23,652 nt of DNA from positions 1-23,652 of IMG/VR virus record IMGVR_UViG_3300025301_000119; one strand, written 5' to 3'. The DNA is from a virus. Both the position numbers and the translations under genes were made by a program. A model generated the notes under the pieces. The model was not told where the DNA came from, did not search any database, and was given only the letters and a program-made list of their open reading frames with translations. Below, piece after piece: positions 8,747-23,652 of this stretch (its first letter is position 1; each line of letters opens with the position of its first letter).

Positions 8747-9436
8747 TTAATTAACAACTTTTTTGTCGATATCTTGAACATTCCAAACATTTAGATTAGC
8801 CGCCACAGTGCGACGCTCACCATCTCCTTCAAATGGATATACAGAATGCTGAAGCCATGACGGAAACATAAGAAACTTTCCAACTTCAGGCTTAATCACA
8901 AAGCTCTGAGGAGGCCGTAATCTCTCAACATCAATTACAGAATTAATTCCATAATTAAATGCCAAGCAACCATCGGCATTTCCACTAGCGTTATACAGAG
9001 AATACTCCGGGCTTCCTGCTGTAGGCTGATCTAATATCTGCTGAGGCACTTTCGTCCATGCAGTACATGAAACGCCCATCAGTGTTTTAGTGCCATGATC
9101 ATGGATGGGATTATAATCACGTTCATAAGAATGTACTGACCATAATTCATCGATCTCGATTTGACGCTCACCACTCAGTGGATTATCAGTAATTTGACTA
9201 AAATGCTTCACATAATCCGCTGCTAAAACTCCGGTCATTTCACAAAAAGCAGCCAGTCTTGAATCCTTATGATCCATCGTCAACTGCTGCCCATGACCAA
9301 TTTGACCCACCAATGTACCAGCGTGGGAAACACGATCATCCTTCTCCATTAACTCATCTAAATACGCATTGAGTCCTTGCACCATATCTTCTGGCATCCA
9401 TGTTTCTAAAAGAAACACCGATGGAACCGTGTGCAT
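8747..9436 (-). CDS. 2OG-Fe(II) oxygenase
   Basis: I prefer the ATG at 9436 (229 aa) because it follows AGGA with 7-nt spacing. A GTG seven codons upstream at 9457 overlaps the preceding stop but has no visible ribosome site. Numbered from the ATG, the active-site features are NPIHDHGTKTLMGVS with H112 and H114, then a C-terminal FPSWLQHSVYPF with H197, followed by R208/R209 and ANLNV. This matches the putative 2OG-Fe(II) oxygenase family PF13759, whose metal ligands and 2-oxoglutarate-binding arginine fall in these motifs. Such genes are common in aquatic phages; the substrate is unknown. Its position between the fibre genes and lysis hints at modification of a virion protein or host metabolism, which is inference. 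Confidence 0.85.
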   Translation of the reverse strand: MHTVPSVFLLETWMPEDMVQGLNAYLDELMEKDDRVSHAGTLVGQIGHGQQLTMDHKDSRLAAFCEMTGVLAADYVKHFSQITDNPLSGERQIEIDELWSVHSYERDYNPIHDHGTKTLMGVSCTAWTKVPQQILDQPTAGSPEYSLYNASGNADGCLAFNYGINSVIDVERLRPPQSFVIKPEVGKFLMFPSWLQHSVYPFEGDGERRTVAANLNVWNVQDIDKKVVN

Positions 9437-9453
9437 TTTGTATTCCTGTTTTA

Positions 9454-9771
9454 TCACGAAGGCACTGCAAAAGCTTTATCAGGAACTGGCTGCACTACAG
9501 GACTGGTAATCACTGAAGCTACTTGGCTCGCAAATATAACGTCCCAATGTGAAACAGGACAGAGAGCGACTAAATTTGCATTACTAAATGTACCTTTGGC
9601 AGCTTTGCTAAAATCTCCATCATCTGCAACTGCTATATGAGTAAAAATACTTGTGTAGTAAGTAGAATCACCTTCGCTATCATTCTCATACTTCATTTCA
9701 ATTTCCCATTTCTCCACTCTGTTAGATTTAACATAAGGAATCGTTTTTACTAACGCTTTTGTGACAGCCAT
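9454..9771 (-). CDS. Conserved small protein downstream of tail fibre, unknown function (105 aa)
   Basis: The ATG directly abuts the TAG of the tail fibre gene with no spacer, which suggests coupled translation. The protein starts MAVTKALVKTIPYVKSNRVEKWEIEMKY-like and has a central acidic YENDSEGDSTYYTS segment followed by DGDFSKAAKGTFSNANLVAL. No membrane segment or known domain is recognised. Its position immediately after a fibre gene would suit a fibre accessory or assembly chaperone, but S74-type fibres carry their own chaperone, so that is only a guess. Confidence 0.68.
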   Translation of the reverse strand: MAVTKALVKTIPYVKSNRVEKWEIEMKYENDSEGDSTYYTSIFTHIAVADDGDFSKAAKGTFSNANLVALCPVSHWDVIFASQVASVITSPVVQPVPDKAFAVPS

Positions 9772-12645
9772 CTACTTATCCTCATTTCCACATTTGTTAT
9801 GCGATTTACTTTCTAATTCTTTAACTTTTTCTGAAAGTTCTTGGATTGCTTTCACTAAGATAGGTACAAACTTACTATACTGTAAACCGTACTGTTTGCC
9901 GTCTTCTGTAAGATGCGTAGTAAGATTTGTTTTATCAGAAATGACATATCCTGCCTCTTTCTCTAAAGCCTCAACCGCTTGAGCTTTAAAGCCCACGTCT
10001 AACCAATCTTCTTTATGAGTGCCGTCGTGCGTGATTGCATCTAAATCATCGCCCTTTTCAGCGTACTTAGAACGCTTATCCCACTTATATGTAACAGGCT
10101 CAAGAGCTTTTACAAAGTCTAAACCGAGATTTAAGGCTGTAAAATCTGTCTTGTCTCGTTCATCAGAAGCGACTGTCCAGTCAACCTGGATATGAGCATT
10201 GGCGATATTTTCATCACCAAGACAAATTTGATTGTCTCCTGTAGTAACAGCACCACCTGGAGAGTTTGCAATTCCTGCATCTCTTCCCAAACAAAGATTA
10301 TTATCGCCTGAACTAATCACATTACCAGCAGAAATCCCTACACCCGTATTAAATATTCCAGCGACAACACCATTAAGTGCGCCCTGACCGACAGCCGTGT
10401 TTGAGCCTCCGGTGGCATTTTGCAGTGCATCAGCACCGATAGCAGTAGAAGAATTAGCATCAACCATCGCAACTAGCGCACCAGAACCTACAGCCGTATT
10501 ACTTGCTCCATCTACATTTACTCCTAGTGCATTGTCACCAAAAGCAGTGTTGTTGCTCGCTGTCGTATTAGCATCGAGAGCATTTGCGCCCACAGCTACG
10601 TTATTCGTTCCAGTTGTATTGGCAGCAAGCGCACTTACTCCTACCGCTACATTATTGGCTGCTGTCGTATTCGCGGTCAGGGCTGCATAACCAACAGCAG
10701 TATTGCCGCCACCAGTACAAGCCTCTAAAGAAGATTGTCCGACAGCGGTGTTACTATTTACATCTACAGACACAACAAGAGCATTATAGCCAACAGCAAC
10801 ATTCCCTGTTCCGGTCGTGTTTGCACCGAGAGCTGCATAACCTACAGCAACATTATTGCTAGCGGTGCTATTGACGTCTAAAGCTAGGTAGCCAACAGCC
10901 GTATTGCTATCACCAGTATTTGCTGCTAATGCGCCTTTACCAAGAGCCGTATTATTTGATCCCGTACTAACAGTGCTAAGAGTATCAACGCCCATTGCGA
11001 CGTTGTAATTACCTGTGGTAATTGATGTTCCTGCAGAACTTCCAATAACAGTATTTTGTGCGCCCGTAGAATTTGCCAACAAAGCAGCAGAGCCAACCGC
11101 CGTGTTATAACTTGCTGTTGTCGTTGCCCCACCAGCATTGTCACCTATAAAAGTGTTATCAGCTCCAGTGGTGACTGCATCTCCTGCCGCGTTTCCAACC
11201 AACGTATTATCAGTCCCTGTGCTGACCGCAACTCCGGATTGATAACCGACTGCTGTATTATTGTTGCCCGTAGCAACTTTTAATGCTTCAAATCCAACTG
11301 CTGTTCCTGTCGTTCCGGTGGACATAGTAAGTAAAGCACTTGCTCCAACGGCAGTATGACCTGACGCAGTAGTTACTGCCCCGCCCGAATTAAGCCCAAC
11401 GAAAGTGTTATTCGATCCGGTTGTTACTGCATCGCCAGAAGTGGCTCCAAGCAAAGTATTTCCAGCACCCGTGCTGACAGCCAAACCTGCACGATAACCA
11501 ACTCCACTATTATTATTTCCAGTTGCAGCTTTAAGTGCTTCAAATCCAACTGCTGTCCCATTCGTTCCTGTGGTAATAGTTTGTAAAGCAGCAGAACCTA
11601 CTGCTGTATGACTTGATGCAGTGGTTATTGCCCCGCCAGCGTTATCTCCGATTAAAGTATTGCTGGCACCAGTCGTTACAGCATCTCCGGCTTCGTTTCC
11701 TATTATCGTATTCTCTGTCCCTGTGCTAACGGCCACACCTGACTGATAACCGAGTGCTGTGTTGTTATTGCCTGTCGCTACCTTAAGTGATTCAAATCCA
11801 ACCGCTGTTCCTGACGTACCGGTACTTATAGTAAGCAGGGCACTCGACCCAACTGCGGTATGTCCTGAAGCCGTAGAAACCGCTCCTCCAGCATTGTCTC
11901 CGACAAAGGTATTATCAGCACCAGTCGTGACTGCATCGCCTGCTGCATAACCGATAGCTGTGTTATCTGTTCCGGTCGAATTGGCTTTAAGAGTATCAGT
12001 TCCGACTGCCGTATTATCAGCAGCGGTCGTCGCTACAAGTAAAGCCGCAGAGCCTATCGCAACACTATTGCTGCCAGTTGTTAATGCACCTGCTGCATTG
12101 TCTCCGACAGCCGTGTTGTCTGATCCAGAAGTGACTGCATCAAGCGATGCCTCACCTATGGCTACATTATCTGTTCCAGTGGTTATGGCTGTTCCTAAGT
12201 TACCAGAACCAAGTCCTACATTGCCTGTCCCACCAGTTAAATCTAATACATCAGTAACTGCTGCACCTGCACCTGCACCATCAGCAACAATCATCTTAAT
12301 GCCACCATTAGGAATGACGACATTTGCACCTGTGCCTTGAGATATAGATACAGCATACCCTGCTGAATTTTGGATGATCCAAGTCTTGTTAACTGTGTTT
12401 GGAGCAAGCGTTACGGTATTAAGGGCAGTAGTGCTTCCCGTTAGAGTCATTACCATCGCTCTGGCAGCATCTGATGCACCATCAGCCATCGTAATCGTAT
12501 GTGTGGTTCCCGTGATGCCTTCTGAACCACTACCAAAGGCTTCGCCTATCAATTCTAAGTTGGTATTGGTGCTAGTGCCCCAGGTTCCTGACTCATCGCC
12601 AGTTGCGATTTCTTTCAGTCTTAAATCATTTACATATGTCGCCAT
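9772..12645 (-). CDS. Tail fibre/spike with YadA-head-type repeats and S74 intramolecular chaperone
   Basis: The 957-residue protein has three parts. Residues 1 to about 140 form an N-terminal virion-attachment type region (MATYVNDLRLKEIATGDESG, GTSTNTNLELIGEAF). Residues about 142-800 are roughly 14-residue repeats of the NNTAVGxxAL type found in trimeric adhesin heads, predicted to form a trimeric beta-roll shaft. The C-terminal 131 residues are a peptidase S74 domain: S827-D-E-R-D-K832 supplies the expected Ser and Lys spaced by five. It is followed by LEPVTYKWD, GFKAQAVEAL and a terminal coiled coil (SKFVPILVKAIQELSEKVKEL). Self-cleavage before S827 would release the chaperone after trimer folding. 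This is likely the host-recognition fibre. The gene starts one base after the preceding stop. Confidence 0.9.
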   Translation of the reverse strand: MATYVNDLRLKEIATGDESGTWGTSTNTNLELIGEAFGSGSEGITGTTHTITMADGASDAARAMVMTLTGSTTALNTVTLAPNTVNKTWIIQNSAGYAVSISQGTGANVVIPNGGIKMIVADGAGAGAAVTDVLDLTGGTGNVGLGSGNLGTAITTGTDNVAIGEASLDAVTSGSDNTAVGDNAAGALTTGSNSVAIGSAALLVATTAADNTAVGTDTLKANSTGTDNTAIGYAAGDAVTTGADNTFVGDNAGGAVSTASGHTAVGSSALLTISTGTSGTAVGFESLKVATGNNNTALGYQSGVAVSTGTENTIIGNEAGDAVTTGASNTLIGDNAGGAITTASSHTAVGSAALQTITTGTNGTAVGFEALKAATGNNNSGVGYRAGLAVSTGAGNTLLGATSGDAVTTGSNNTFVGLNSGGAVTTASGHTAVGASALLTMSTGTTGTAVGFEALKVATGNNNTAVGYQSGVAVSTGTDNTLVGNAAGDAVTTGADNTFIGDNAGGATTTASYNTAVGSAALLANSTGAQNTVIGSSAGTSITTGNYNVAMGVDTLSTVSTGSNNTALGKGALAANTGDSNTAVGYLALDVNSTASNNVAVGYAALGANTTGTGNVAVGYNALVVSVDVNSNTAVGQSSLEACTGGGNTAVGYAALTANTTAANNVAVGVSALAANTTGTNNVAVGANALDANTTASNNTAFGDNALGVNVDGASNTAVGSGALVAMVDANSSTAIGADALQNATGGSNTAVGQGALNGVVAGIFNTGVGISAGNVISSGDNNLCLGRDAGIANSPGGAVTTGDNQICLGDENIANAHIQVDWTVASDERDKTDFTALNLGLDFVKALEPVTYKWDKRSKYAEKGDDLDAITHDGTHKEDWLDVGFKAQAVEALEKEAGYVISDKTNLTTHLTEDGKQYGLQYSKFVPILVKAIQELSEKVKELESKSHNKCGNEDK
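11113..11868 (-). repeat. Three tandem 252-bp super-repeats in the tail fibre gene
   Basis: In transcription order, copies run 11868-11617, 11616-11365 and 11364-11113. Each encodes 84 residues, that is six 14-residue head repeats. They begin at SGHTAVG, SSHTAVG and SGHTAVG respectively and correspond to residues 260-511. The block looks like recent duplication on top of the older short repeats, so fibre length may vary among relatives. Confidence 0.85.
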
Positions 12646-12646
12646 T

Positions 12647-13411
12647 TTAAGCTACCTTTTTCCATTCAGGAGTCTGGTCACTATCTACCGAACTCCAACT
12701 TGGTGTTTGTGTTGTTGATACCGATGACCAAGAAGGGTCTTGAGTGGTTGAAACAGCAGACCAACTTGGTGTCTGGCTGCTGCTGACAGCACTCCAATTC
12801 GGGGTCTGATCCGTATCCACAAGTCCCCATACCAAAACTTGCGTGATTGCACCGGTTCCTGCCAGACCTTCGAGCGTAACACCTGAAGCACCTGTAACCG
12901 TAACCGACCCAACCTGTCCTGTAGCCACTCCCAGATCAGTGAGACTAATAATATTGTTGGTAACCAGCGAGAGGCTACCCAGCGCCGAAGTCCCTGCCAC
13001 GCCTGTCGGATAGACATTCGCATCACCGGTAACCGTTTCATCGCCCAACCCAACCGTAGATGCCGTACCGCTGACGCCAGTAATGGCATAGCCCGCTGCC
13101 AGTAACGTGCCAACAGCAGCGGTACCAGCAAGGCCAGTGACCGCAACATTGGCTGCAGCAGCGATACTGACTGAGCCAACCGCGCCCGTACCTGCCAACC
13201 CCGTAACCGCAACATTGGCAACACCCGTGGCAACCACCGTACCGACAGCGCCGGTACCTGCAAGGCCCGTGACAGCGACATTCGCCGCAGAACTGACACT
13301 AACCGAGCCAAGCGCCGACGTACCGGCAAGACCGGTAAGATCGACAGAAATAGGCTCACCCCATGTGCCCGATCCCCATGTGCTACGACCCCAACCATTG
13401 ATGTTTGCCAC
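12647..13411 (-). CDS. Repeat-rich virion protein (254 aa, GTG start)
   Basis: The likely start is a GTG at 13411; the upstream ribosome site is weak. The N-terminus has an INGWGRSTWGSGTWGEP motif seen in phage structural proteins. Residues 26-113 contain four 22-residue repeats with GLAGTxAxG and ANVAVT, and a looser set follows to about 190. Residues 200-252 hold five 11-residue repeats with the core QTPxW or QDPxW. The protein is probably an elongated beta-rich virion component. It sits directly upstream of the tail fibre gene, with a one-base gap, so a role in fibre attachment is plausible. The region is more GC-rich than its neighbours. Confidence 0.75.
   Translation of the reverse strand: MANINGWGRSTWGSGTWGEPISVDLTGLAGTSALGSVSVSSAANVAVTGLAGTGAVGTVVATGVANVAVTGLAGTGAVGSVSIAAAANVAVTGLAGTAAVGTLLAAGYAITGVSGTASTVGLGDETVTGDANVYPTGVAGTSALGSLSLVTNNIISLTDLGVATGQVGSVTVTGASGVTLEGLAGTGAITQVLVWGLVDTDQTPNWSAVSSSQTPSWSAVSTTQDPSWSSVSTTQTPSWSSVDSDQTPEWKKVA
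12656..12814 (-). repeat. 33-bp repeats encoding QTPxW units
   Basis: Five approximately 33-bp units encode 11-residue repeats with the core Gln-Thr/Asp-Pro-x-Trp-x-x-Val at residues 200-252 of the 254-residue virion protein. The regular Trp spacing suggests a folded or binding repeat, not random low complexity. Confidence 0.8.
13073..13336 (-). repeat. 66-bp tandem repeats encoding GLAGT units
   Basis: Four 66-bp units encode 22-residue repeats with GLAGT at residues 27, 49, 71 and 93 of the 254-residue virion protein. The DNA of the units is diverged but phased exactly. A sample 60-base stretch at 13201-13260 is about 63 percent GC. Confidence 0.8.
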
Positions 13412-13421
13412 ATTGCTCTCA

Positions 13422-13853
13422 CTACGCTATGCGAATAACCGCATTACTGGCGTCCGCTGTTGGAAACGTAATCGTGAAACTTCCAGCAGTAGATGTCTTA
13501 TCACCGCCAAAATCGAACACCGCCACCGCCGGATCACCGGATGCTGAGTCGTTAAAAATCATGCAGCCTCGCGCCGTGATCGTGCAAGTACCGAAAGTTA
13601 AATCAGCGAAATCCGTGAACGCAGTGGTTCCAGATGTTGACGGATCAATCCGCGTCAATGAATTTCCTTTCGCTGTATAATTTGTTCCACTTGCTTCTTG
13701 ATTCGTAGAATATGCAGTTGTAGCAGCCGACATAGTGGCTGAACTGGTATATAACGCCAGCCGAAAGGTATTACCTCCCGAAAGCAAAAAATTGTGTTTT
13801 GCCTCCATCAGTTCTTTCTTGAAGCTGGTACACATTGCTTGGGTGATTGCCAT
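13422..13853 (-). CDS. Small virion structural protein (143 aa)
   Basis: The ATG directly follows the stop of the upstream gene, with an AGGAG site inside that gene's 3' end. The N-terminus MAITQAMCTSFKKELMEAKHNF and the following FRLALYTSSATMSAATTAYS pattern match a virion protein family widespread in aquatic phages. The remainder is beta-rich and ends VFDFGGDKTSTAGSFTITFP. It would be a beta-sandwich structural protein of the neck or tail. The exact location in the virion is unknown. Confidence 0.72.
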   Translation of the reverse strand: MAITQAMCTSFKKELMEAKHNFLLSGGNTFRLALYTSSATMSAATTAYSTNQEASGTNYTAKGNSLTRIDPSTSGTTAFTDFADLTFGTCTITARGCMIFNDSASGDPAVAVFDFGGDKTSTAGSFTITFPTADASNAVIRIA

Positions 13854-14144
13854 TTAAAGTCTCCTAATAATTTCGGCCATATCACTGTGACCTTTTTGTT
13901 CCAAAATATTGCCTACCGTACAGATATGGCTTGCAATCGCTTTGTGCATGTAATCAGCCAATACCGCTTCTACCTGTTGCTTAAACACATGCGCCTGCTG
14001 TTTAATAGGTTCGGGAGCCGTGTTACTGATACCCACAATTCTATTGGCCGCCATCTGTGCCCATTCTTCCGGAGTGTGCCCCCGATAATGGGTCGTTTCA
14101 ACGCCCAAATTACCTACCGATGTATCCAATTCTACTTGCAGCAT
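13854..14144 (-). CDS. Small helical conserved phage protein (96 aa)
   Basis: The ATG at 14144 overlaps the preceding stop by one base (TGATG). A TTG one codon earlier is possible but less likely. The recognisable core is RGHTPEEWAQMAANRIVGIS followed by helical segments (PIKQQAHVFKQQVEAVLADYM) and a C-terminal DMAEIIRRL. I recall similar proteins in aquatic tailed phages but no function. It is co-translated with the Rossmann-like enzyme gene upstream and a virion protein gene downstream, which suggests a morphogenesis role. Confidence 0.68.
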   Translation of the reverse strand: MLQVELDTSVGNLGVETTHYRGHTPEEWAQMAANRIVGISNTAPEPIKQQAHVFKQQVEAVLADYMHKAIASHICTVGNILEQKGHSDMAEIIRRL

Positions 14145-14881
14145 CAATAACTCGCTGGCTCAACAGCCTGTAATCCAGACCCTTTAACAAGCCGTATATT
14201 ATCCTGGCGACCAGAATATCCTTTCACCGGCTCATCCATCTCAACTTCCGAATACTTAGTTAATTTCAAATCTCCGTCCTCATCCAAATACACCACCGGT
14301 GGATTCTCCAACCGATGATATCCATATAGTTTCTGATTTTCTGGAATATTGGTATCTAGTAGTGAAGACCGTGGTGCAATAGACACCTCCATTCCAGCAG
14401 TAATACAGCGAGACAACCAGAATTCACAACAGGCACGACCTAATTCGCCAAAATAAACATTGGTTGTATAACTGAAATCCGCACCGAACAAACTGAGTTT
14501 CTTCACTTTCATCCACAAAGCATAAGCAATCGCATAAGAAATGGTATTGTTGAAATAACCACACCCCAGTTCCTGCACAATCTTCTCTAGCGGATATAGT
14601 TCTATTGACGGCACCCGTTTATCATATTCACACGAATACACCGGACAGGTCAGTTTAGGTAAGGTCTTACGCATCACTTCTGTCTGTGCTCCGGCATGTT
14701 TAGTCTCGAAAAACCGTGAAGCGGGGTCCATCATAAATACGCGGTCGGCATCAACCACCGCACACATTGAATTCACCGCCCATACTTCGTCATATTCCAC
14801 ACTGTGCGTTAGCGACAAGTGGTAATCCAACTGGCTTTGTCCCAGTCCAAGCAATGCTACATGATTAAGTTTCTTAGTCAT
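14144..14881 (-). CDS. Rossmann-like protein, possibly DUF115/GT42-type enzyme (245 aa)
   Basis: I choose the ATG at 14881, which overlaps the previous stop by one base (TGATG); a GTG one codon earlier is also open. The N-terminus HVALLGLGQSQLDY (8-20) resembles a nucleotide-binding strand-loop. It is followed by DEVWAVNSMC (31-40) and DRVFMMDP (46-53). Later, NNTISYAIAYALWMKVKKLSLFGADFSY (split motif, 111-138) follows a pattern I associate with DUF115/MptE-like and sialyltransferase-related proteins, in which an Asn/Ser motif precedes a hydrophobic helix and a Gly-x-Asp loop. APRSSLLD lies at 169-176. It would be an enzyme acting on a nucleotide or nucleotide sugar. The remote family assignment is tentative and the substrate is unknown. 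It sits inside the connector gene cluster. Confidence 0.6.
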   Translation of the reverse strand: MTKKLNHVALLGLGQSQLDYHLSLTHSVEYDEVWAVNSMCAVVDADRVFMMDPASRFFETKHAGAQTEVMRKTLPKLTCPVYSCEYDKRVPSIELYPLEKIVQELGCGYFNNTISYAIAYALWMKVKKLSLFGADFSYTTNVYFGELGRACCEFWLSRCITAGMEVSIAPRSSLLDTNIPENQKLYGYHRLENPPVVYLDEDGDLKLTKYSEVEMDEPVKGYSGRQDNIRLVKGSGLQAVEPASY

Positions 14882-15522
14882 CACGCCCTCATCGCCCTGA
14901 CAGAGCCACCTCGGTAACTATCCGTAGTGTTATATCCTTCACCTAAAATCTTCAATTGTTGTACCGCTTCCTGATACCGTCCTTCATACATCTGCATCAA
15001 ATCGGCTTCACCTTTCAAAAAACTATAGGATTCAACCAAAGATGCGTACAGCAATGCCAACTCAGCATTGTCACCGAGCCAACTGGTACCGCTGCTGGCT
15101 GCCGTAATAGACTCCGGCTTGTAAAAATAATGCAATTCAACGGCGTAACCGCTACCCGGAGTCGGGCCGAGAATAAATGAGTCGTCATCAAACAAACCGT
15201 AATATTTCGGAACACCAGTTGTAGATGACACTGGATAAGCAGCCCGAATAAAGTTCACGTCTTTAAAAATTAGATATTCATAACCGCTATTGTCCAGTGC
15301 CAGTGAATAGGGCGCTAGAAAATCACTCGGCGTTGCCAGATACGCATTACTCGAAGTCATCGTACCAGTCGTATTCTTACGAAAATCAGGTAATTGCACC
15401 GTTTTCAGAATACGATTCTCTGCTTGAGAGATAATTGTGCCCAAATCGTTAACAAACGTAGTCTCGGTTGTTTCCAAATAGTCTTGGAGAGCAGATTTCA
15501 GCGTTGTATATGTCCAAGCCAT
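14881..15522 (-). CDS. Phage adaptor / head-tail connector protein (213 aa)
   Basis: The start overlaps the preceding stop by one base (TGATG). The N-terminus MAWTYTTLKSALQDYLETTE leads to FVNDLGTIISQAENRILKTVQLPDFRKNTTG, a pattern of the phage adaptor family (annotated as DUF6682 in some databases, from memory). A beta region with YLATPSDFLAPYSLAL and YYGLFDDDSFILGPTP follows, then a helical C-terminus (ALLYASLVESYSFLKGEADLM, MYEGRYQEAVQQL). This helix-beta-helix plan suits a neck ring component linking portal and tail. Neighbouring genes encode other connector-type proteins. Confidence 0.7.
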   Translation of the reverse strand: MAWTYTTLKSALQDYLETTETTFVNDLGTIISQAENRILKTVQLPDFRKNTTGTMTSSNAYLATPSDFLAPYSLALDNSGYEYLIFKDVNFIRAAYPVSSTTGVPKYYGLFDDDSFILGPTPGSGYAVELHYFYKPESITAASSGTSWLGDNAELALLYASLVESYSFLKGEADLMQMYEGRYQEAVQQLKILGEGYNTTDSYRGGSVRAMRA

Positions 15523-15863
15523 CAGCCTGTACTCACCTTTAGTTTGCCAACCTGACCGTGCATCGTCAGCCCTACCGTGCGACTACCCAAGGCGCTGTTA
15601 CCACCACCAATCGGGTCCCAAGCATAGACCCGACGACTTTCAGCCAAAGTAGAATCCGGTCTGGCATTGCGTAATGCTTCGGGATCATTGGTATTAAAAC
15701 GACCCAACTGAAGCTGTGGCTGATCTTTATCCACCACGTCTCTGCCTACACGCATTCCAGTTGGCCTTCCGCCTTCATATTGTTCAACCATGTCTCTCAG
15801 CTTATAGCGAAAGCCGGTGCGGTCACAGTAGCCAAAAGCATATTTACCGTTCGCATAACTCAT
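15522..15863 (-). CDS. Conserved small phage protein with degenerate zinc-finger-like N-terminus (113 aa)
   Basis: The start is in an ATGA overlap with the stop of the upstream gene. The N-terminus KYAFGYCDRTGFRYKLRDMV resembles a family of small phage proteins in which this segment often reads Cys-Asp-x-Cys-Gly-Phe. Only one Cys is present here, so zinc binding appears lost or absent. The continuation (VGRDVVDKDQPQLQLGRFNTNDPEALRNARPD, several short conserved blocks) is typical. The C-terminus contains a small Gly/Ser beta part. It lies between two connector-type genes and is probably a virion or assembly protein. Confidence 0.7.
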   Translation of the reverse strand: MSYANGKYAFGYCDRTGFRYKLRDMVEQYEGGRPTGMRVGRDVVDKDQPQLQLGRFNTNDPEALRNARPDSTLAESRRVYAWDPIGGGNSALGSRTVGLTMHGQVGKLKVSTG

Positions 15864-16555
15864 GGGAATCGATAGCCTCCCGGCGTTACCCGAAATGACG
15901 CTTTCTCTCTGTCGGCATCAGCCGCCAGATTCCATTGCTCTTCATATTCAGACTTCAGCATGGGTGCTCTTTCTGAGACTTCAGGCCGCTTGAGACTGAT
16001 CTGATACGCCAGCCCTGATACCAAGCACGGCAGATACCGAGATGGCACATCCATGTTATTTGACCCTGGTGATCCGGAATCTTCGACACGCTGCATATAA
16101 TAATAGCCCAGCGTATAGGTTTCAGCACTGTCCGGCACAGGCCACAGATTCACCGCAATCGCAGATGGATCTTTCTCAAGCCAATACTGCAACGGCTTCG
16201 CCTCATTCAACTTATTGGATAAATGCGAATACTGACTAATCGAAACCCGCGTCAGCACTTGATCAAACTGTTTGCTGCTATCGCCTGAATCGGTACGAAT
16301 ATAGGCTTCGATAATATCGACGATATCGCTGGATAGTGCATAACGGGCTGTACCTGCGGTGATTGACGTCGTGCCTTCCTGTATGGTCCACAGATTCAAG
16401 CCACGGTTCTGCCATTCCAGCATCAATAAATCGATACTTCTTCTGGCGGTACGAAAATCATAACCAGTGCGTAATTCCAGTCCCGCCCGCTCGAATGACT
16501 CTTCAATCATATCTGCCAGATCGAGAGTAAAAGCGTAAGTGCCGCTGGTTGCCAT
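15860..16555 (-). CDS. Head-tail connector, P22 gp4-like tail accessory type (231 aa)
   Basis: The start overlaps the stop of the Lys-rich gene by one base (TAATG). The protein begins MATSGTYAFTLDLADMIEESFERAGLEL and has TARRSIDLLMLEWQNRGLNLWT near residues 36-57. That helical pattern is shared with the P22 gp4-like first connector proteins of podoviruses. A beta segment (SSDIVDIIEAYIRT) and LQYWLEKDPSAIAVNLWPVPDS follow, then a helix with YLPCLVSGLAYQISLKRP. It would bind the portal ring and start the tail. The assignment to gp4 rests on recognised pattern and gene position, not on an alignment. Confidence 0.68.
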   Translation of the reverse strand: MATSGTYAFTLDLADMIEESFERAGLELRTGYDFRTARRSIDLLMLEWQNRGLNLWTIQEGTTSITAGTARYALSSDIVDIIEAYIRTDSGDSSKQFDQVLTRVSISQYSHLSNKLNEAKPLQYWLEKDPSAIAVNLWPVPDSAETYTLGYYYMQRVEDSGSPGSNNMDVPSRYLPCLVSGLAYQISLKRPEVSERAPMLKSEYEEQWNLAADADREKASFRVTPGGYRFP

Positions 16556-17335: not shown

Positions 17336-17920
17336 TTAGCTATCAACAAATGGTGTGGCTAATGTTCCATCACCCATCAGGAATGCCTCAACCCACCAAG
17401 TGGTAGTGTTAACGCCAGTAAGTAATATCCATCCACCTGTTAACCAGCCTTGCTCCACCTCACCTAGATCAATAATGTCGTTAGAGGATGCCGGATGAAA
17501 ATTATCTGTTTCGCCAATCTCGCCTGTATCAAACAGGAACGCCGTACCTAGAAACCCATCGGTTCCATCAGTCGTCGCTGTTTTGATCTGTCCCGCCCCA
17601 GTAAAGGTTGTTTCAACGAGAAATTTGTAAACGATTCCCGCTGCCGGAGTAGGCAACGTAACCACGATACCACCCGCTCTGTTAAAACCAAAAACGGTTC
17701 CAGTATCGGCTGATGTCAGAGTTTTTGTTGCTGCTGTGATTGACTCATAGTCAGAGAGGATGTTCGCCGCTCCGGTTAGCTTCAACGTACCCGAACCAGA
17801 TACATTTCCGCTTGAGTCGATGTCGAAATTGTTTGTGACCGTGCCGGTTCCAGCAGCTTTACTGATTTGCTCAAAGCCGCCTTCAGACCTAACTGGGCCG
17901 TTAAAAGTTGTGTTAGCCAT
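17336..17920 (-). CDS. Virion structural protein downstream of major capsid (194 aa)
   Basis: The ATG at 17920 follows an AGGAG site. The first residues MANTTFNGPVRSEGGFEQI and the Gly/Ser/Thr-rich beta pattern (DIDSSGNVSGSGTLKLTG, VFGFNRAGGIVVTLPTPAAG) resemble capsid-associated or decoration proteins of aquatic phages. The C-terminal part contains several Trp residues (WLTGGWILLTG, TTTWWVEAFLMGDG). No catalytic motif is visible. The gene stands alone between two hairpin-containing gaps, directly after the major capsid gene, which suggests a high-copy virion component. The specific role is inferred. Confidence 0.7.
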   Translation of the reverse strand: MANTTFNGPVRSEGGFEQISKAAGTGTVTNNFDIDSSGNVSGSGTLKLTGAANILSDYESITAATKTLTSADTGTVFGFNRAGGIVVTLPTPAAGIVYKFLVETTFTGAGQIKTATTDGTDGFLGTAFLFDTGEIGETDNFHPASSNDIIDLGEVEQGWLTGGWILLTGVNTTTWWVEAFLMGDGTLATPFVDS

Positions 17921-17945
17921 GTCTTTCTCCTGTCTTGGCTAGTGT

Positions 17946-17965
17946 CTGCCGCATTATTGCGACAG
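17946..17965 (-). other. Stem-loop in the leader of the 194-aa virion gene
   Basis: On the minus strand CTGTCGCA and TGCGGCAG form an 8-bp stem (one G-U) around an ATAA loop. No U-run follows, so termination is unlikely. It lies about 25 nt before the start at 17920 and could be an mRNA processing or 5' protective structure. Confidence 0.5.
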
Positions 17966-17982
17966 TCAGGAAAAAGAGAGCG

Positions 17983-18038: not shown

Positions 18039-18974
18039 TTACGCACCCGGCGATCCGTACATTCCCAATGGATCACTCACCCCGAATGAGTACCTTTCTC
18101 TGGCTTTGTATCTCACATTGCCAGTATCGAAGTCACCGTCCATTGAAGTTTCCAACGCGGTACGCTCGAAGTGGCGCATACCATTTGGTACATCAGTAAC
18201 GATGAACCAGGCATCCGAATCAGTCAGGTAATGATTGACCGAATAACCTTCAGGTACTGCTCCAAGACTACGCACAGCATTGATGTCATTATCAGCCGTA
18301 GCAACTCTTTGATCTGACTCAAGCAGTCGCGTAGCTGTAAACATCAAGGCCGGTGGCACCAACAACCGTTTCGGACGAGCCGCGATCAGAAGTCCACGCT
18401 CATCGGTCACGGCAGCGATTGTTACGATTGCTGCCTCCAATGAGGTTTCGTTGAGATCTGCCGCCGTTGACGGACGGTTATCGTTCGTGCCTCCGCTGAC
18501 GAGCGGATGCCCGCCACCGCCGGTTACACCGTCACCGGACGCAGTGAAGAAATTAACTCCATCACCTGTCTGATAACTATTAGTGAAACCGTTGTTAAGC
18601 GGATTGACAGCCTTAACCTGCTTCGTGTACGACATTGCACGAGCGAGTGCCTTGGTATAGCGAGCAGATAGCGAGTCATAAAGATTATCTTCCATCGCCT
18701 CCTCTGTAATCGCGAATCCCATTGCAATCGTTTCGTGGTTGTATCGTGCCGTAAAGGCTTCCTGCGCTGAATCATATGAGATACCAGCACCTTCATCCTT
18801 CACCGGAGCAGCGTCAAACCCACTCAACTTCACTTCTTCTTCAAAAGAACGCTCAGATGAGTCCGTGTCATAAATGACAGTGTGCTCATCAGAGTACTTC
18901 TCATACTCCAGGCCAAAAAGGGCGTTAAGCCCCGGCAGGAGTTCTTTGAGCATCTGTGCTCTTGAAATAGCCAT
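18039..18974 (-). CDS. Major capsid protein
   Basis: The 311-residue protein lies two genes after the scaffold-like protein, the expected place for the capsid subunit. It begins MAISRAQMLKELLPGLNALFG. It contains EAFTARYNHETIAMGFAITEE near residues 71-91 and a helix YTKALARAMSYTKQ, a combination typical of HK97-fold capsid proteins of this phage type. It continues with RPKRLLVPPALMFTATRLLES and the C-terminal RYKARERYSFGVSDPLGMYG, the common 'Arg-Tyr...Phe-Gly-x-x-Asp-Pro' ending. GGAG lies before the ATG. The gene's flanks contain hairpins that may set a separate mRNA level. Confidence 0.88.
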   Translation of the reverse strand: MAISRAQMLKELLPGLNALFGLEYEKYSDEHTVIYDTDSSERSFEEEVKLSGFDAAPVKDEGAGISYDSAQEAFTARYNHETIAMGFAITEEAMEDNLYDSLSARYTKALARAMSYTKQVKAVNPLNNGFTNSYQTGDGVNFFTASGDGVTGGGGHPLVSGGTNDNRPSTAADLNETSLEAAIVTIAAVTDERGLLIAARPKRLLVPPALMFTATRLLESDQRVATADNDINAVRSLGAVPEGYSVNHYLTDSDAWFIVTDVPNGMRHFERTALETSMDGDFDTGNVRYKARERYSFGVSDPLGMYGSPGA

Positions 18975-21615: not shown

Positions 21616-21837
21616 TCATGTCCGCTCCAACCTTTCTTCGAGGTCAAGCAATTCCCGTTCCGCGAGGGCCAGTCCTTCAACCACTCCGCAACAACGGGCA
21701 TATTCACTGTAATCCTTGCAAGCACCTGTACTCAGATGATCGCTACTTTCATTCATCATGCGCCGTAATTGCATCCGTAAATAGGCCAGCGTGTTATCCG
21801 GCGCTGGATCAAGACGTTTAACAGCAGCATCATTCAT
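21616..21837 (-). CDS. Small helical conserved phage protein (73 aa)
   Basis: The ATG overlaps the end of the portal gene by 8 nt. The protein is helical, with DHLSTGACKDYSEYARCCGVVEGL and ALAERELLDLEERLE blocks that I recall from aquatic phages at this position. It carries three Cys residues within a dozen positions. Its role is unknown; position next to portal suggests a portal-associated or assembly factor. The gap to the GroES-like gene downstream is about 63 nt and contains no clear hairpin. Confidence 0.68.
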   Translation of the reverse strand: MNDAAVKRLDPAPDNTLAYLRMQLRRMMNESSDHLSTGACKDYSEYARCCGVVEGLALAERELLDLEERLERT

Positions 21838-23652
21838 TCATTAAGTCCTTGGCAATATTCACGCCTACTTTCGCGCCCTCAATTTCCGACTTGGCAGCAA
21901 TCTTTCTACTTTCCAGTTCTTCCTTGGAATTCTCTGCCGCAATCTTCACACCCAGTTTTGCACGATCGGTACGTTCCTGTAAATCCAGTCTGGCACGTTC
22001 CAACTCATCCTTACTTGCCGCTTTTTGGATATCAAGGTTAATTTTTGCCATTTCAGCTTGCGCCTTAGCCTGCGCTTCTTGTTGTTTAATTTCAAGTTCT
22101 TGGCGTTGCATTTGTAAAATCGGATCTTCCGCTTGTTCTTGCTGTTTTTGCATTTCAGCTTCTTTTTGGTCCTTACCAAGCAGTTGCTCAGCCGCTGGAG
22201 CCACTAATTGCGACAACCGGTACTCAATATCATCAGGCAATGGTTCTTCTGGTGATGGTAATGGCACACCGAGTTCTTTTTCAATCTCACGGCGGTACTG
22301 GAAGGCCACATGCTCGGAAATATGCGCTGACATCGCCGCCTCAGTCGCTTGAGCAGTCGGACTTTGACCGATCAACTCCAAAATCTTGGGATCTTGCACC
22401 AAAGAGATGTGCGCCTGGATATGAGCTTCATGATCTTGATAAATAAAGGCTTTTACCGGCTCACCATTGATAATATGCATGTTTTCGGTGATAGGATCAC
22501 TCGGATTAATGACATCTTCATCAGGAATGATGTCTTCGGTGTCCCGAATACCCAAAACTTCCAGCATTTGCCGGTGTAACAGCGGTAAATCGTACATTTG
22601 CGGTGCCTGAGCAGCCAATTGTAACGCCGCCTGATATTGCATAATGCGTTGCGCCAGTGTTCCGGCGTTCGGATCGCTCACCGGAATGATATCAACGCGA
22701 TCATCGAAGTCTTCGGTGGTCAATTCATCACCGATCAACTCATACGGGTACTCGGTGGGACCAAAATCACGAACAATGCCCGATAAAATGCGCAATTCCT
22801 TACGCATTGAGGCGTGTAAGCGGGCCTGCACCGCGCTCATCACCTTCATCGAGCGTTCTAAAATGGCTAATGTGGTGCCAACGGGTGCTTCGGCGTTCAT
22901 ATCCGCGACTTTTACGTCCGCTGCGGAAGCAAACCGGCGTCCTTCCTCAACAATATCGCCCATCAACTGATATAAAACAGCAGATGGCTCTTTGTAGGGC
23001 AGAAAACTGATGTTGTCGCGGATTACACCGCCCGGTACGTCCACATCACGGAACTCTCCGGGCATGATCGGGGTGTCATCACCCTTGATTCGCAGTCCAC
23101 GCGCCTTCAAACCGCCCGGCAAGTTGGATAAGGTGCCCGCATCGACCAGTTGTCGCAATAATGAGGTAGCGGATTTCGCCAAGCCACCGATCATGTGAAT
23201 TAAACCGAAACCATAAAATCCCAGTCCGGGCATATACTGGTAATGCACGAAATGCTCACGCTTCATTTTCAGTTCATCGTCTTCATACCAGTTACGGCGA
23301 ATCGCTAAAATGGTGCGTGAGGACTTATCGATGCTAACAACATAGGGCAAGCCAATCTCAGTCGGCTCACCATCCTGAGTATCTTCAAATCCCGGCAGAT
23401 CCAGATCAGCCTGAATCTCTAAAATGGTATGACGCGAATCCATGTCATAGTTAGCCGAATCACCGGTTAACTGATTATATTTGCGTTCTATCTCGCCGGT
23501 ATCGGGGCTGGGTGCGGGTAAATCCACGTCCAGATAAAATCCGGACACCTGTAATTTACGCACCTCGTTCTTGGTACGCTTCATCATATGGGTGGCACGT
23601 TCACAGGTAGTCAGATCAGCAGCACCATAGCTGACCACGAAATCTTCAGCGG
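21830..23652 (-). CDS. Portal protein (5' end outside window)
   Basis: The frame stays open to the right edge, reading AEDFVVSYGAADLTTCERATH at the visible start, so the N-terminus is missing; an internal GTG at 23638 is not the true start. About 607 residues are visible. Blocks typical of P22-type podovirus portals are present: FYLDVDLP, YVVSIDKSSRTILAIRRNWYED, HYQYMPGLGFYGFGLIHMIG, LLRQLVDAGTLSNLPGGLKARG, FRDVDVPGG, and VKVADMNAEAPVGTTLAILE. The last 110 residues are Gln/Glu/Lys/Ala-rich and likely form a helical barrel or coiled coil. The protein makes the DNA entry ring and contacts the connector proteins encoded further down. Confidence 0.92.
   Translation of the reverse strand, partial: AEDFVVSYGAADLTTCERATHMMKRTKNEVRKLQVSGFYLDVDLPAPSPDTGEIERKYNQLTGDSANYDMDSRHTILEIQADLDLPGFEDTQDGEPTEIGLPYVVSIDKSSRTILAIRRNWYEDDELKMKREHFVHYQYMPGLGFYGFGLIHMIGGLAKSATSLLRQLVDAGTLSNLPGGLKARGLRIKGDDTPIMPGEFRDVDVPGGVIRDNISFLPYKEPSAVLYQLMGDIVEEGRRFASAADVKVADMNAEAPVGTTLAILERSMKVMSAVQARLHASMRKELRILSGIVRDFGPTEYPYELIGDELTTEDFDDRVDIIPVSDPNAGTLAQRIMQYQAALQLAAQAPQMYDLPLLHRQMLEVLGIRDTEDIIPDEDVINPSDPITENMHIINGEPVKAFIYQDHEAHIQAHISLVQDPKILELIGQSPTAQATEAAMSAHISEHVAFQYRREIEKELGVPLPSPEEPLPDDIEYRLSQLVAPAAEQLLGKDQKEAEMQKQQEQAEDPILQMQRQELEIKQQEAQAKAQAEMAKINLDIQKAASKDELERARLDLQERTDRAKLGVKIAAENSKEELESRKIAAKSEIEGAKVGVNIAKDLMNE

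Follow-up and report, generated by a model that had tools for sequence, protein, structure and literature searches.

An optional gene in the neck operon of marine phages encodes a predicted GT42/DUF115-like enzyme that may modify the virion

Why should an enzyme be encoded among the genes for the neck of a phage particle? The question is raised by the IMG/VR record IMGVR_UViG_3300025301_000119, a viral fragment of 23,652 bases that was analysed over its full length and is referred to here as the window. Its layout runs from the portal protein (21830-23638) to the capsid protein (18039-18974), two adaptors and tail genes, and then to lysis genes. Among isolates, its capsid is closest to those of Synechococcus and Planktothrix phages, of DSL-LC04 and of the pelagiphages HTVC027P and HTVC023P (59-67% identity). 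The same region holds a GroES/Cpn10-like phage protein (21154-21600, minus strand, PF00166, E 4.6e-9) and, just 3' of the capsid gene, an Rfam Mu-gpT-DE RNA element (17918-17971, minus strand, 64.9 bits). The original prediction had described a 245-residue protein carrying GLGQSQ, NSM and LFGADFSY segments, joined to an adaptor-type gene and a small virion gene by one-base TGATG overlaps. All three segments were found, at residues 12-17, 37-39 and 131-138, respectively, in a reading frame on the minus strand, which had gone unstated; it starts with an ATG at 14881 and has a TGA stop ending at 14144, while many stops interrupt the plus strand of that interval. Both overlaps can be read directly from the DNA, the adaptor stop meeting the start of the gene, here called enz, at 14881 and the enz stop meeting the start of p97 at 14144. 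The adaptor-type neighbours were likewise borne out by Pfam. The genes concerned are as follows.

15860-16555, minus strand: adA, second SU10-type adaptor (SU10_adaptor, PF24175, E 6.8e-15)
15522-15863, minus strand: p113, small conserved neck-operon protein (phrog_28581, E 1.8e-7; order conserved)
14881-15522, minus strand: adB, SU10-type adaptor directly upstream of enz, with a one-base overlap (SU10_adaptor, PF24175, E 9.8e-23)
14144-14881, minus strand: enz, GT42/DUF115-like stand-alone enzyme gene, 245 aa (from reading frame, fold, hhalign to DUF115 and dN/dS)
13854-14144, minus strand: p97, small helical-looking conserved protein starting at a one-base overlap, also present in loci that lack enz
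13422-13853, minus strand: p143, Ser/Thr-rich conserved protein, used as anchor gene (phrog_644, E 9.4e-20)
12647-13411, minus strand: tail254, 254 aa, with VAVTGLAGTGAVG repeats and a W-S-x-V-x-x-x-Q-T-P repeat tail
9772-12645, minus strand: tail-fibre-like protein, 957 aa, with many NTAVG-type repeats and an S74 chaperone domain (Peptidase_S74, E 6.7e-9)
8747-9457, minus strand: 2OG-Fe(II) oxygenase (PF13759, E 2.5e-13), possibly a second virion-modifying enzyme

From their context, the small genes downstream of enz are likely virion genes. Pfam and PHROG searches returned no family match for p97, and p143, in which Ser and Thr make up 29% of residues on average, matches phrog_644, a family that carries no assigned function.

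It can be observed that enz belongs to a large viral family. Searching IMG/VR with the window protein recovered 20 relatives (53-100% identity), an alignment-based scan confirmed at least 592 viral stretches encoding relatives, and a scan starting from a divergent branch gave at least 594. Where dN/dS could be computed, it was 0.033-0.039, indicating strong purifying selection. The number of viral stretches, the conserved gene order and the low dN/dS together place enz far beyond chance. Among relatives, the 5' junction is most commonly an overlap of 4 bases or of 1 base, the latter not being universal; at the 3' junction, roughly half of the relatives have a TGATG or TAATG overlap.

The family is undescribed and new to the reference libraries used here, even though its fold is known. 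No match to enz exceeded the cut-off in Pfam, NCBIfam or PHROGs; the weak Pfam trace was MptE-like only (residues 115-140, E 0.19), and the score against PF01973 (MptE-like/DUF115) was 11.9 bits, below the gathering cut-off of 34.6. Among 27 relatives, 3 gave any match to PF01973, the best with E 0.03. When 50,697 phage records were searched by tblastn, the window protein found no match and a divergent member found one only, a Microcystis phage protein encoded just upstream of the terminase (locus L091, 7680-8483, PP496355.1; E 2.8e-11 to the enz family). It is annotated as a "type 11 methyltransferase". This label looks wrong and is likely a misannotation, since a Methyltransf_11 control profile reached a Prob of only 0.05-0.09 against the enz family. 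Distant homologues were also found in genome bins (L175-L179). Two of them, L175 and L176, are of the same phage type; the homologue in a Planctomycetaceae bin (L177) lies beside a capsid-type gene and that in an FCB bin (L178) beside p113 homologues. In a TA06 bin, a phage-like region (L179, 1641-3791) contains a tandem pair of enz-like genes, after which comes a gene of sulfotransferase type (Sulfotransfer_4, E 1.1e-6). Genes of the enz type thus adjoin virion genes again in unrelated phage-like loci, namely those of the Planctomycetaceae bin, the FCB bin and the Microcystis phage. The literature search turned up no account of an MptE-like or sialyltransferase gene in phages, and the pelagiphage and roseophage papers searched did not mention such a neck-operon gene.

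The fold was modelled by AlphaFold2 with 48 sequences (pLDDT 78, pTM 0.72), residues 218-245 being disordered in the model with pLDDT below 50. The original prediction had associated the protein with DUF115/MptE-like or sialyltransferase-related folds, and it is these that ranked highest in VIA-align. At the top was the Maf flagellin glycosyltransferase of PF01973/DUF115 (Z 11.6 over 161 residues, 3.8 Å), followed by the MptE pyrophosphokinase (Z 11.2, 2.8 Å), thiamine pyrophosphokinase (TPK; Z 10.5), SteA (Z 10.4) and the GT42 enzymes (Z 9.3-10.1; CstI and CstII about 10 over 150-160 residues, 3.5-3.8 Å), so that the model can be said to adopt the GT42 fold; human GT29 enzymes scored about 7 and the next unrelated fold 5.8. 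In Foldseek, the first PDB match was GT42 CstII (E 8.5e-5), and the viral matches include phage proteins named MptE-like. A separate model of the Planctomycetaceae homologue gave Z values of 11.9 for Maf, 11.7 for MptE and about 10 for GT42, its best Foldseek PDB match being MptE. Profile comparison pointed in the same direction: hhalign of the enz family against DUF115 domains from gammaproteobacteria gave Prob 96 (P about 2e-9), compared with 0.04-0.09 for the two Rossmann controls (short-chain dehydrogenases and type 11 methyltransferases). The family profile retrieved seven PDB sequences up to E 10, all of them GT42 and none significant alone (best E 1.8). By profile homology and predicted fold, enz thus belongs with PF01973 (MptE-like/DUF115) at the superfamily level.

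Conservation was counted over 140 distinct marine relatives. Residues G14, D46, D52, P53, R56, C84, D87, R89, N111, N112, G133, D135, E146, R149, E153, S172, D176 and Y186-R190 are present in 100% of them and N37 in 97%; even the far homologues keep W34, G133, D135, R149, E153, S172, Y186 and G187. The residues at which the core strands end vary little or not at all, with an enrichment at strand C-ends that is only modest, 11 of 178 circular shifts being as high. The original prediction had tied its reading to structural matches within the families it named and to the persistence of putative active-site residues across homologues; such matches were obtained, and the candidate nucleotide-site residues, far from being lost, are nearly invariant in the 140 relatives. 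The elements concerned are listed below.

14831-14848, minus strand: GLGQSQ loop of the first strand (residues 12-17), corresponding to the DUF115/GT42 GxGPS loop (aligns to the GPSL loop)
14726-14728, minus strand: D52 of D46-x5-D52-P53, acidic residue spaced as in Maf/DUF115
14546-14551, minus strand: N111-N112, before the helix that leads into GxD (aligns with the CstII YFNQRITSG stretch in HMMER)
14477-14485, minus strand: G133-A-D135 (GxD), after the fifth core strand, invariant to the most distant homologues
14423-14446, minus strand: ELGRACCE (E146, R149, E153), conserved polar helix
14147-14161, minus strand: EPASY at the C-terminus, a conserved EPxx[YWF] ending that follows the disordered linker (from sequence and pLDDT)

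Relative to the GxGPS of the DUF115 set, the GLGQS loop keeps G14 and S16 while the proline is replaced. The known classes can be told apart by how the acidic residue after the third strand is spaced. Maf-type DUF115 domains read PD-x5-D-P, matching D46-x5-D52-P53 of the phage proteins, whereas MptE (8sd5) reads PDIIVSDLDG and a TPK-like sequence GDLDS. The DxD (DLD) motif found there in MptE and TPK is absent from the enz family, in which D52-P53 occurs in 140 of 140 relatives and continues as D52-P53-x-[S/T/A]; the acidic residue stands at +6 and is followed by proline, compared with DxD at +5/+7 in MptE and TPK. This spacing favours, rather than proves, a Maf-like transferase over a pyrophosphokinase. 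The ELGRACCE helix characterises the phage family and may give the acceptor or leaving-group site a different shape. The EPxx[YWF] ending is found in 100 of 138 complete relatives and is possibly a docking element.

The order adA-p113-adB-enz-p97-p143-tail was nearly constant in the loci found through enz. This was partly to be expected from the way in which those loci had been found, and p143 was therefore used as the anchor instead. Among 78 scorable p143-anchored loci, enz was present in 53 and missing from 25, all of which keep adB, p97 and p143. Isolates DSL-LC04 and MJing1 show adB-p97-p143 without enz, while HTVC023P, HTVC027P and CRP-901 show adB-p143, again without it. An inseparable enz-p97 pair was consequently dropped as an interpretation, because DSL-LC04, MJing1 and the 25 viral loci have p97 but no enz. 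On the adB, p143 and adA trees, the presence and absence of enz require 9 changes among 185 loci and 10 among 74, and a single clade of loci lacking enz was rejected (p-AU 3.3e-5 on a quick tree). Repeated change combined with purifying selection implies a cassette that is under selection yet dispensable, rather than a required neck component. In pairwise identity, enz tracks p143 (rho 0.74) and p97 (0.65) better than adB (0.42), and close neck relatives may carry a diverged enz, as in the window and locus L023, where enz is 76% and adB 93% identical. Given these patterns and the repeated changes, the cassette also behaves as exchangeable at one junction. In two loci, L165 (2534-3623) and L169, an insert of about 1.1 kb lies between adB and enz and holds a putative 2OG-Fe(II) oxygenase ORF (PF13759, E 2.6e-5; 25.0 bits, below the cut-off of 27); a second ORF in the insert is oxygenase-like by eye only.

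Of the known systems, Maf (PF01973; PDB 5mu5) is like enz in giving the best Z, in profile homology, in its surface-protein context and in a D/E six residues past the PD/DR position, and unlike it in being a three-domain protein of more than 600 residues, whereas enz has a single domain. Maf enzymes attach nonulosonic acids to Ser/Thr of flagellin, a surface filament protein, by O-glycosylation, and their central PF01973 domain resembles CstII (PMC11339370). The archaeal MptE, a 6-hydroxymethyl-7,8-dihydropterin pyrophosphokinase (PDB 8sd5), shares the fold and a similar size; it has DLDG where the enz family has MDP, and enz has no pterin context. GT42 CstI and CstII (PF06002; PDB 2p2v, 1ro7) are single-domain proteins like enz, and their YFNx...GxDF stretch aligns with it, but PF06002 matched none of 27 family members. 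Position 143, the presumed counterpart of the GT42 catalytic histidine in a register set by sequence and not by superposition, is not invariant: it is His in 76% of relatives and Tyr in 14%, including the window.

We tentatively propose, at somewhat below an even chance, that enz is a stand-alone transferase of DUF115/GT42 fold that moves a sugar residue from a host nucleotide sugar to one of the phage's own virion proteins during assembly. The proposal starts from the fold, the conserved strand-end residues, the purifying selection and the precise optional position, from which we infer the steps that follow. It also draws on the Maf-like spacing of the acidic residue, on the recurrence of such genes next to virion genes in unrelated phage-like loci and on the putative oxygenase inserted beside enz in two loci. 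The enzyme would be produced from the same operon as the neck and tail proteins and might be docked by its conserved C-terminal tail. It would take a nucleotide sugar made by the host, plausibly carrying a nonulosonic acid or another residue, and transfer it while the virion is assembled. The acceptor would be a surface-exposed product of the operon, namely a neck protein, p143 or the tail fibre; the Ser/Thr-rich p143 and the fibre (9772-12645) are the candidates suggested by our analysis. No CMP-sugar synthetase (PF02348) exceeded the cut-off in 20 long contigs, so the donor would be of host origin. Loci that carry enz are no different from those that lack it in their downstream tail genes or in Ser/Thr content, and the p143, p97 and adB columns gave no convincing acceptor signal in this comparison, single-column differences being confounded by kinship. 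A phage precedent for the idea is provided by mycobacteriophage glycosyltransferases (e.g. of Maravista), which have been proposed to glycosylate the capsids of these phages (PMC11256854); they are like enz in their proposed role, as phage enzymes glycosylating a virion protein. The broader claim, that enz represents a new family of mobile, widespread protein glycosyltransferases coupled to the neck operon, decorating marine phage virions and swapped at the junction of adaptor and tail genes, is doubtful at present.

The fold itself speaks against too firm a transferase reading, since pyrophosphokinases are equally close. An MptE/TPK-type pyrophosphokinase or another nucleotide-modifying enzyme would agree with Z values within about 1 of that of Maf and with the best Foldseek match of the distant homologue; however, the absence of the DxD motif and a location among virion genes, where nothing suggests a pterin or thiamine function, make this quite improbable. 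Modification of host surface glycans (LPS or capsule) that blocks superinfection, with late expression as a coincidence, is unlikely, if somewhat less so. GT42 enzymes act on lipo-oligosaccharide, according to PDB titles, and pelagiphage glycosyltransferases have been linked to lipopolysaccharide modification (PMC9599517), but the enz model shows no apparent membrane-association segment, and its close and repeated association with neck and capsid genes would be unusual for a surface-modifying enzyme.

A structural exaptation, in which a virion component kept the fold and lost catalysis, had been left as an option by the original prediction. It would account for the location between adaptor and tail genes and for the conserved tail after the disordered linker. 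This option loses weight, because between a quarter and a third of related loci are without enz, the rest of their neck operon being intact, and isolates HTVC023P, HTVC027P, CRP-901 and DSL-LC04 are without it as well; the conserved set, moreover, includes polar residues that end core strands, and we regard such a role as no likelier than that of a pyrophosphokinase. Accessory counter-defence genes typically have a patchy distribution, as enz does, and the fold is a nucleotide-binding one, which would suit a sponge for a nucleotide signal or defence product that modifies no glycan; given the placement in a late virion operon and no pointer in PHROGs or NCBIfam, this is very unlikely. The enz product may modify a virion protein or a glycan. 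Its function is a well-founded guess, while the earlier observation and the reading of the fold were right.

To our knowledge, only a few systems of phage virion glycosylation are known. Here, a family lacking annotation is given both a fold and a function that can be tested. HTVC023P-type pelagiphages and CRP-901-type roseophages carry homologous adA, p113, adB and p143 genes in the same order as the window, whereas the cultured HTVC023P, HTVC027P and CRP-901 are without enz. The neck operon is otherwise constant and enz is optional at a single fixed junction, which allows a natural comparison of presence and absence across hundreds of marine phages. If the virion is modified, its surface would be switchable, which could alter adsorption, host range or resistance to receptor-based defence. 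The presence of enz in the neck operon suggests that these abundant marine phages may coat parts of their own particles with sugar.
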